20,913 nucleotides of DNA, taken from the IMG/VR virus record IMGVR_UViG_3300044733_002800, positions 1 through 20,913 of that record. One strand, written 5' to 3'. Below the pieces are notes generated by a model that did no database searches, was not told where the DNA came from, and saw only the letters and a list, made by a program, of their open reading frames with translations. Both the position numbers and the translations under genes were made by a program. This DNA is from a virus. Of this stretch, positions 2,361 through 4,148 are shown piece by piece. Positions within the stretch are counted from its first letter, which is position 1, and each line of letters opens with the position of its first letter.

Positions 2361-2508
2361 GAAGAAATTCACTGCCAGCATTAACACCCGCGTCACTCCG
2401 GCGACGCGGGATAACCTAAAGAAAAAAGCGCAAAAGCGCAAAATCCGCCTGACTGACATTGCCCGCGAGGCGCTGGAAGAAAAGGCACAAGCCAAACAAA
2501 ACCAATGA
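2359..2508 (+). CDS. Small ribbon-helix-helix DNA-binding protein
   Basis: This 49-aa protein has an N-terminal beta strand (KKFTASINTRV) followed by two helices (TPATRDNLKKKAQKRK, then LTDIAREALEEKAQ). That is the CopG/Arc/MetJ ribbon-helix-helix pattern, including a basic first strand that would enter the major groove. Such proteins act as dimeric repressors. It lies 45 bp after the large terminase. Its TGA overlaps the ATG of the next gene (ATGA at 2505-2508), so the two are probably translationally coupled. An inverted repeat covers its start codon. I infer that it regulates the cassette up to 4128. Confidence 0.72.
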   Translation: MKKFTASINTRVTPATRDNLKKKAQKRKIRLTDIAREALEEKAQAKQNQ

Positions 2509-3113
2509 AGTCAATAACTACAACTTGGACGGGCATCCGCCCGCTCATCATGTCGAATCCGCAGACGGTGGAAATCGCCAATCCGTTCGCGGTAAATTCG
2601 CGGCGCATTAACAACCTCCTGAAAGCCGCGCGCAAGAAGGGCGACGAAAACCGCATGGCTGAACTGGCCGACGAACAGAAACGCGGAGATTGGGAGGCGT
2701 CCGCGTATTGGGACTCGGAGCGCAAGGCGTTTTACGTTCCCGACACGGCGCTGCTCGCTTGCATCCGCAACGGTGCGGCAGCGGCAAAAAAAGGAAAGGA
2801 CATCGACCGCGCCGTCATTATTACCGAGACGGAAGCGATTATTGAAACCGACATCAAACACAACAGCCTCGACGCCTACTACGCCGACGCCGCGTTTCGT
2901 CTGGAATGTCCGGCGAAGGTGCCGCCGAAAACCGGCGCGCTCATCTGGAAAGTCCGGGCAATGGTGCCGACCGGCTGGAAAGTCACGTTCACGATTGAGT
3001 TCGACGAGAACATCGTTGCCGAGAAATCGCTTCGTGAGGCGCTGGAATTAGCTGGCCGTCTCAGCGGAATCGGCGGATGGCGTCCCAAGTTTGGGCGGTT
3101 TTTGGTGAGCTAG
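2505..3113 (+). CDS. Conserved phage protein with RAMP/Cas7-like motifs (inferred), next to a structured RNA
   Basis: Function unknown; 202 aa. An N-terminal strand-loop reads TWTGIRPLIMSNP (7-19). A charged helical insert follows (about 31-65), then YVPDTALLACIRNGAAAAKKG (77-97) and a glycine-rich basic end GIGGWRPKFGRF (188-199). I have an impression of phage proteins ending in a similar motif, but could not check it. An N-terminal strand, a Pro-anchored helix with Arg and a C-terminal G-rich loop are also what RAMP (Cas5/6/7) RNA-binding folds show. That analogy is inference. The start is an ATGA overlap with the upstream gene. A pentamer/hairpin RNA array begins at its stop codon, so it may bind that RNA. 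Confidence here refers to the gene being real. Confidence 0.85.
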   Translation: MKSITTTWTGIRPLIMSNPQTVEIANPFAVNSRRINNLLKAARKKGDENRMAELADEQKRGDWEASAYWDSERKAFYVPDTALLACIRNGAAAAKKGKDIDRAVIITETEAIIETDIKHNSLDAYYADAAFRLECPAKVPPKTGALIWKVRAMVPTGWKVTFTIEFDENIVAEKSLREALELAGRLSGIGGWRPKFGRFLVS

Positions 3114-3148
3114 GCGAGGTCGGGCTATGCGAAGCCTTGCAATGACTG

Positions 3149-3191
3149 GCCGCACACACCGCGCACGGGAAACCGTGGGCGGCAGTGCGGC
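3149..3191 (+). other. Hairpin 1 of the array, GAAA tetraloop
   Basis: The outer stem GCCGCAC/GTGCGGC has 7 bp (3149-3155 with 3185-3191). The internal loop is ACA (3156-3158) opposite CA (3183-3184). The inner stem pairs 3159-3162 with 3179-3182, then has a G-G mismatch (3163/3178), then pairs CACGG (3164-3168) with CCGTG (3173-3177). The GAAA loop is at 3169-3172. Confidence 0.8.
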
Positions 3192-3241
3192 GTGTCATGG
3201 AACGGCGTGGCGTGGCCAGGCGAAGCGAAGCGGTGACGGGT

Positions 3242-3276
3242 CCACACACCGCGCTCTTTCGGGAGCGCGGCAGTGG
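3242..3276 (+). other. Hairpin 2 of the array, UUCG tetraloop
   Basis: The outer stem CCAC (3242-3245) pairs with GTGG (3273-3276). The internal loop is ACA (3246-3248) opposite CA (3271-3272). The inner 9-bp stem (3249-3257 with 3262-3270) closes with a U-G pair on a TTCG loop (3258-3261). GTGAC (3233-3237) and GTCAC (3281-3285) could add a further outer helix. Confidence 0.8.
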
Positions 3277-3326
3277 CGCGGTCACAGCCATGCAATGCAA
3301 GGCGCAGCGCGGTGCGGACAAGAAAA

Positions 3327-3365
3327 GCAAACACGCCGCGCTTCTTCGGGAGCGCGGAAGTTTGC
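3327..3365 (+). other. Hairpin 3 of the array, cUUCGg tetraloop
   Basis: The outer stem GCAAAC (3327-3332) pairs with GTTTGC (3360-3365). The internal loop is ACG (3333-3335) opposite AA (3358-3359). The 9-bp inner stem (3336-3344 with 3349-3357) carries TTCG at 3345-3348 with the canonical C-G closing pair. Compared with hairpin 2, the last two pairs swap order (U-G then C-G instead of C-G then U-G), so pairing is kept despite base changes. Confidence 0.82.
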
Positions 3366-3418
3366 GCGAACTGGCGATGCATAGCGGGGCAAGGTTCGGA
3401 CCAGCCAAGCATGGCGTG

Positions 3419-3455
3419 GCAAACACACAGCGGCTTACGGGCCGTTGCAGTTTGC
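3419..3455 (+). other. Hairpin 4 of the array, UACG tetraloop
   Basis: The outer stem GCAAAC (3419-3424) pairs with GTTTGC (3450-3455). The internal loop is ACA (3425-3427) opposite CA (3448-3449). The inner stem (3428-3435 with 3440-3447) contains two G-U pairs, and the loop TACG (3436-3439) is of the UNCG type. The inner stem is unrelated in sequence to hairpins 2 and 3, yet the plan is the same. Confidence 0.82.
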
Positions 3456-3522
3456 TGGGCGCGGCATGGCTCGGTATGGCGCGGCGAGGCAGGGCATTGC
3501 CTGGCGCGGCGTGGCACAATCA

Positions 3523-3539
3523 TCCGGCTAATCACCGGA
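3523..3539 (+). other. Short hairpin between the RNA array and the next gene
   Basis: TCCGG (3523-3527) pairs with CCGGA (3535-3539) around a 7-nt loop. It is followed by CAGTTTT and the ATG at 3547. It may mark the 3' end of the array RNA or a weak terminator. The stem is short and the T run is brief, so it is not called a terminator. Confidence 0.35.
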
Positions 3540-3546
3540 CAGTTTT

Positions 3547-4050
3547 ATGACAAACCAACCAGAAAAAGAACCAATCGAAGCAGAAGTTGAAATCACGTCC
3601 GACGACGCCTATCCGGCGCTTTGGGTGCGTCTCGTTGACGAAATGATCGAGAAAGGCATCACGTTCGGAACCAAATACGAAATGGCCTATCTCGTTGACC
3701 GGCTCGCCTGTCAACCCGAGTCCATCGCATTTGGCATTGCCATCTCGAATATCAATGACGAGTTGATCGAGAGCGGGCTTTACTTGTCCGCGCGCGAACA
3801 GCGCGGAGCGGGCTATATCGTGCTGATGGCAGACGGCGCGGAGGAAGTGGCGCGCACTCGCGTTCGCCGTTCCTTCCGTGAAATGGCGCGGGCGTGCAAA
3901 CTGTTTGGCGGCATCGCCCGCAACCCCGAGGCGCAGATCACGGACGACACAAAAAAGCGTTTGCTCAAGTGCGAGGAAAAAGCGGCAATCCGGCTTTCGC
4001 TGATGCGCGCGCCGATTACGAACGCGCGAAAGGCGAATCTTTTGGAGTAG
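3547..4050 (+). CDS. Unknown protein, possibly winged-helix
   Basis: This 167-aa protein is not recognised. After an acidic N-terminus it is largely helical. The segment around residues 57-95 (helices, then SGLYLSAREQRGAGYIVL) looks like the recognition helix and wing of a winged-helix domain, but that is only a pattern impression. The C-terminal half is a basic helix (VRRSFREMARACKLFGG) and a KKRLLKCEEKAAIRLSL helix. It lies between the pentamer/hairpin RNA and an intrinsic terminator, so it probably belongs to the same transcript as the ribbon-helix-helix and RAMP-like genes. No Shine-Dalgarno precedes the ATG. Confidence 0.75.
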   Translation: MTNQPEKEPIEAEVEITSDDAYPALWVRLVDEMIEKGITFGTKYEMAYLVDRLACQPESIAFGIAISNINDELIESGLYLSAREQRGAGYIVLMADGAEEVARTRVRRSFREMARACKLFGGIARNPEAQITDDTKKRLLKCEEKAAIRLSLMRAPITNARKANLLE

Positions 4051-4061
4051 AGCGGTTATAC

Positions 4062-4098
4062 ATGGCGCTGCAAAGCGTGGATATGCAATCGCAAGGGC
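4062..4098 (+). repeat. Second, short block of the GC-ending pentamers before a terminator
   Basis: Five in-phase units at 4062-4086 (ATGGC, GCTGC, AAAGC, then two more ending GA and GC) are followed by two 6-nt units that run into the stem at 4093. The unit pattern is that of the 3106-3515 array. This block also starts just after a stop codon. Confidence 0.55.
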
Positions 4099-4128
4099 GG
4101 CACTGGAAACGGTGCCGCCCTTAGTTTT
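4093..4128 (+). terminator. Strong rho-independent terminator with GAAA loop
   Basis: A 13-bp stem (4093-4105 with 4110-4122), containing one G-T wobble, closes on GAAA (4106-4109). AGTTTT follows. It would end the transcript carrying the ribbon-helix-helix, RAMP-like and 3547 genes, and separates them from the head operon. Confidence 0.85.
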
Positions 4129-4148
4129 GCCGATTTAGTTAAGGTGCA

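Follow-up and report, generated by a model that had tools for sequence, protein, structure and literature searches.

VIPR, first described in April 2026 (bioRxiv, April/June 2026; PMC13142463), is a DNA-binding system that is guided by RNA and related to CRISPR. According to the main text of that report, its guide RNAs (vrRNAs) consist of 9-16 YNNGG repeats, which can be written as GGY triplets alternating with NN dinucleotides, followed by a structured 3' tail. The published loci are found in phages, where the vrRNAs adjoin the vipr gene and a vap gene, the latter predicted to encode DNA-binding proteins in types II, VI, and VII of the seven VIPR types. The NN dinucleotides pair noncontiguously with double-stranded DNA, with one base skipped, and the system represses rival mobile elements. 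The vrRNAs of the SUSP1 and P. fulva systems are expressed and are recovered together with Vipr on purification; Vipr is a RAMP protein proposed to be ancestral to the CRISPR RAMPs (PMC13142463). Published VIPR also resembles Class 1 CRISPR, with its RAMP backbone of Csm3, Cmr4, and Cas7, in the protein oligomer formed on a guide RNA and in the interrupted pairing.

Here, we analyzed a viral stretch of 20,913 nucleotides (the window), in which the first-pass annotation had described four like-built hairpins at 3106-3539 as an undescribed class of structured RNA. We are highly confident that this region is instead the vrRNA array of a phage VIPR system, as described in April/June 2026, because a Vipr protein is encoded beside the hairpins and because the linkers are phased pentamers. 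The hairpins that had been taken as the core of the element then become the 3' tails, while the specific information sits in the linkers, which are the guides. The array comprises at least five vrRNAs, assigned as follows.

2505-3113, + strand: predicted vipr gene, 202-aa Cas7/RAMP-like protein (phrog_4652)
3113-3152, + strand: vrRNA1 guide, 8 repeats (GA CG TA GA CT AA CT CG), phase p=4e-4, closely similar in L001-L006
3149-3191, + strand: vrRNA1 tail hairpin with GAAA loop; fold of -34 kcal/mol (z -4.4), covariation
3189-3243, + strand: vrRNA2 guide, 11 repeats (GT AT AC GT GT CA GA GA GG CG CC), phase p=2e-4
3242-3276, + strand: vrRNA2 tail hairpin with UUCG loop; fold, covariation
3281-3330, + strand: vrRNA3 guide, 10 repeats (AC CA AA AA GC GC GC CA AA AA), phase p=4e-4
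3327-3365, + strand: vrRNA3 tail hairpin with UUCG loop; fold, covariation
3363-3422, + strand: vrRNA4 guide, 11 repeats plus a tail-linked AA (GC CT GA AT GG AA TC CC CA AT GT), phase p=2e-4
3417-3457, + strand: vrRNA4 tail hairpin with UACG loop; fold, covariation
3453-3517, + strand: vrRNA5 guide, 13 repeats (TG GC AT TC AT GC GA AG AT CT GC GT AC), phase score 0.97, p=2e-4
3516-3546, + strand: vrRNA5 tail, a simpler hairpin UCCGG/CCGGA (3523-3527/3535-3539) followed by CAGUUUU
3547-4050, + strand: candidate vap gene, 167-aa putative winged-helix-like DNA-binding protein
4044-4129, + strand: candidate sixth, degenerate vrRNA (repeats 4044-4088; tail hairpin 4094-4121 with GAAA loop)

Comparison of the 2505 protein with known structures identified PDB 36pp, the SUSP1 Vipr protein, as its closest solved relative (phmmer E=1.4e-17), and a profile built from 73 homologues gave a single strong PDB match, again 36pp, with an E-value of 3.7e-40. 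The AF2 model of the protein has a pLDDT of 96, and the top Foldseek matches to this model are Csm3, Cmr, and Cas7 chains (E-values down to 5.7e-6), consistent with the fold of the Class 1 RAMP backbone. From sequence and modeled structure, the product is assigned as Vipr, a RAMP homologue. In contrast to Class 1 CRISPR, the window has a single small protein and a pentamer guide with predicted noncontiguous pairing, and no CRISPR array was seen. Immediately upstream (2359-2508), an ORF encodes a 49-aa basic ribbon-helix-helix-like protein; its stop codon overlaps the vipr start (ATGA), so that the two are probably co-translated, and it is possibly a regulator.

Each of the five linkers of the window alternates a triplet, consensus GGC, with a free dinucleotide and keeps strictly to a 5-nt phase (p from 2e-4 to 4e-4 for each), with 8-13 repeats per tract. 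This phase had been overlooked in the first-pass annotation, together with the fifth tract and its tail and the degenerate sixth candidate. Guide 5 is a near-perfect GGC array, while guides 1-4 are degenerate in GGY (NGC, GGA, TGA), and for this reason some of them may be weak or decayed. The vrRNA5 tract and tail (3453-3546) end just before the 3547 gene, and relatives have a counterpart of this tail at the same place, in which changes of the stem retain pairing (CCCAC/GTGGG in L005, for example). The phase score of the candidate sixth unit is just 0.6; its inner stem is identical to that of one tail of L048, where it is clean, and clean tails occupy the sixth-unit place in L002, L007-L009, L011, and L012. 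The first guide of L007, L008, and L012 (around 5610-5690 in L008) is degenerate and retained almost intact as the guides after it are replaced, perhaps reflecting a constant target, and guides 1 and 2 show the same retention in L001-L006.

RNA triplets separated by 2-nt spacers with a period of 5 are also found in the NAG-repeat leaders bound by TRAP (trp RNA-binding attenuation protein), but the triplet and the protein are different and the TRAP leader has no guide function. Both a TRAP-like and a packaging-RNA reading were dropped given the linkage of the array to vipr and the match to PDB 36pp.

The fold reported by the first-pass annotation between the 2505 and 3547 genes was recovered at 3149-3457 on the + strand, with hairpins at 3149-3191, 3242-3276, 3327-3365, and 3417-3457. 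All four share an outer stem, an ACA/CA internal loop, an inner stem, and a UNCG or GNRA tetraloop. The tetraloops (GAAA, UUCG, UUCG, and UACG, starting at about 3169, 3258, 3345, and 3436) are 89, 87, and 91 nt apart, in line with the 87-91 nt estimated before, and the internal loop is ACA opposite CA, with ACG opposite AA in the third copy. The whole hairpin region has a folding z of -6.1 relative to shuffles. With the 2505 protein as query, viral contigs yielded 13 related loci, each with at least two hairpins of the same plan 3' of the gene, in which the stems are altered and the pairing is retained. Across 28 distinct tails, 99.4% of positions are paired, compared to 74% when the arms are shuffled. 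In an alignment of 21 tails, 98.4% of cells are paired, both sides have changed in 8 of the 12 pairs, and the covariation score reaches 0.575, compared with 0.159 for shuffled alignments, with none of 500 shuffles as high; shifting the partner by 1-3 columns abolishes pairing. Covariation in related phages, set beforehand as a test of the claim that the stems are under selection for structure, is therefore present. The loops of the 28 tails are UNCG/YNMG-like or GNRA, and the internal loop is ACA in 26 of them, over NA; the fixed C-G pairs beside this nearly fixed ACA/NA loop suggest that it contacts protein. Among the loci examined, the ACA/CA hairpin is confined to one group (the window, L001-L013, L036, L048, and L059). 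The Rfam 15 search of the window returned nothing at the gathering cut-off, and what it gave at 3080-3560 was only sub-threshold noise. A protein-coding reading of the array region was rejected, as the two longest ORFs tested in it match no Pfam or PHROG family.

Scanning viral contigs for seven GGC-NN units yielded at least 120 loci. A homologue of the 2505 protein is present in 82 of the 120 loci listed, always with the array within 1.5 kb, and among the arrays near vipr at these loci, 109 of 111 are on the strand of the gene and 2 on the opposite one. Since the G+C content of the loci listed ranges from 39% to 76% and their tails are various or not obvious, the pentamer tract and the Vipr protein are the conserved core. 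The same arrangement is seen in the coliphage wV8 (Felixounavirus), where GGT pentamers flank a near-identical homologue of SUSP1 Vipr (6e-128 with PDB 36pp). In this phage (EU877232), the repeats annotated DR_4 beside the homologue (2259-2316 and 3652-3709) look like vrRNA tails.

Several loci depart from this layout. In 38 of the 120 listed (L025, L033, and L089, for example), vipr was not detected; some are cut contigs and others are long, and such loci might encode diverged Vipr proteins or supply vrRNAs that act in trans. One tract of L033 is readable as GGC-NN on both strands. The reverse strand of L131 (10197-12211) has a different array architecture, in which a single vipr gene is surrounded by three long arrays of pentamers, broken at intervals by shorter steps (GGCAGGC), and that of L016 (3081-3624) carries an array whose conserved tail, present in several copies, is of another type (GGGCCTTATTGC...GACGTGCAATC). 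Sampling of 195 genomes of the Verrucomicrobia phylum turned up no Vipr.

These observations bear on two other explanations of the region. In the first, the hairpins would be the active part of a stand-alone structured phage RNA, such as a packaging RNA, a decoy, or a cis-regulator of the flanking genes, with the linkers serving as spacers. The hairpins are indeed real and covarying, and the locus of the window phage lies between terminase and head genes, unlike those of the SUSP1 and P. fulva systems; however, the linkers hold their 5-nt phase while the dinucleotides vary, pentamer arrays go along with vipr and recur across many phages whose tails differ, and the 2505 protein is assigned as Vipr, which leaves this explanation very improbable. 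The second is a DNA-level repeat array (a recombination hot spot, a replication origin, or a terminase site) merely resembling RNA. It would account for the variable number of units among relatives (2 to 7 or more), as expected of recombining repeats, but we give it almost no weight given that loops of the UNCG/YNMG and GNRA kinds and the presence of G-U pairs fit RNA, and given the shared strand of arrays and genes and the expression and co-purification of the SUSP1 and P. fulva vrRNAs (PMC13142463). Together, the tail covariation and the co-orientation of arrays and genes make it well supported that the hairpin region is a + strand RNA under selection for pairing, as had been proposed from its tetraloops and G-U pairs, and we retain its reading as a vrRNA array.

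Compared to the systems of Escherichia phage SUSP1 and the Pseudomonas fulva prophage (type II) as presented in the main text of PMC13142463, the window shares the RAMP protein Vipr, GGY/NN guides with variable NN, structured 3' tails, an array adjoining vipr, and the reading of targets with a 1-nt skip, and it has a small adjacent gene for a putative DNA-binding-like protein; guide 1 is one repeat short, and a predicted target of this kind, presumably on competing mobile elements, was found for guide 4 only. The differences concern the repeats, which are GGC here with several degenerate, and the tail, here a hairpin of two stems and a 3x2 internal loop where that of SUSP1 is a pseudoknot; the tail type of the window clade has no match in the main text of that report. 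In the window, as in all of the L001-L012 loci that hold vipr, the 3547 gene lies 3' of vipr and on its strand. The AF2 model of its product (pLDDT 78) has a winged-helix order, with weak MarR-like Foldseek matches, none below 1e-3. Since its likeness to gene 94, the neighbor of vipr in wV8, a SUSP1-like phage, is unconvincing (no clear similarity was found), the vap label is used as a candidate name.

With a 1-nt skip, all 11 dinucleotides of guide 4 match a tyrosine-integrase sequence in a Verrucomicrobia genome (L141/G001), at the motif VALEMGNSPQIVFQHYRELVT, where the skip falls at the wobble base, in register. Read as codons with the wobble skipped, the guide corresponds to A-L-(D/E)-(I/M)-G-(N/K)-S-P-(H/Q)-(I/M)-V. 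The open frame that contains this 11/11 site is short and C-terminal, while full-length integrases of related genomes match with one or two letter mismatches (10/11); 10/11 matches are found in L143 and in L139, whose site is also that of L144. Using 9 dinucleotides against viral contigs, an integrase was matched in L138, alongside two other matches that look like chance, and using 10 against a collection of 85,000 genomes, two of three matches were integrases, while the third (L140) is clearly unrelated. In seven related genomes, a skip of 1 gives four integrase sites with 0-2 mismatches, compared to none for skips of 0 and 2 and one site with 3 mismatches for a skip of 3. Among 241 genomes of the phylum, only one was matched.

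For the other guides, no target was convincing. Exact 9-dinucleotide scans of viral contigs gave no target for guides 2 and 5 and only chance-level matches, in unrelated phages, for guides 1 and 3. Guide 2 had 3-mismatch matches at chance level in two genomes, guide 5 had none in seven genomes, and the single match of a clean guide from L007 was judged to be chance. When 256 guides were compared all-against-all with a local set of 2.3 Mb (both strands), a database too small for the purpose, no skip stood out.

The system could be VIPR and the guide 4-integrase match still be coincidental, with the real target elsewhere. The unrelated match in L140, the chance-like matches of guides 1 and 3, and the extension of the guide 4 search pattern after the first integrase match lend this some weight. 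We nevertheless consider it unlikely, since the matches come together at a single conserved motif of integrases, where the skip coincides with the wobble base, since they can be lengthened to 11/11, and since they are gone at skips of 0 and 2. We estimate that chance would produce a 22-letter match about 0.03 times in 257 billion bases (both strands). Tyrosine-integrase genes are therefore the most likely target of guide 4 on sequence grounds, a good prediction that falls short of proof.

By analogy with the published system, from which the steps of transcription, processing, assembly, DNA binding, and repression are drawn, the + strand would be transcribed into about five guide RNAs of ~85-90 nt, each made of a GGC-NN pentamer tract and a hairpin tail and trimmed to one guide and one tail. 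The Cas7-like Vipr from the upstream gene would coat the repeats, probably with one subunit per pentamer, while the tail would cap the complex and probably mark its 3' end. The NN dinucleotides would pair with double-stranded DNA, with one target base skipped between dinucleotides, and the complex would bind and repress a selected gene in a competing phage or mobile element. The integrases matched by guide 4 presumably belong to competitors, whose integration would then be hindered.

Taken together, an orphan RNA is resolved into a very recently described RNA-guided system, and pentamer arrays, with at least 120 loci, are common in viral contigs. The match of guide 4 lends independent support, from an uncultivated phage lineage, to the VIPR reading rule; the predicted natural target (integrase genes) is new here, and a well-defined, clade-specific hairpin tail is added to the system. 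More tentatively, the covarying two-stem ACA/CA tail, the putative winged-helix accessory protein, and the silencing of competitors' integrases might define a distinct VIPR subtype, a proposal we hold at somewhat less than even confidence. If true, the 1-nt-skip code would apply in this subtype too, outside the clades for which the main text of PMC13142463 details natural targets.
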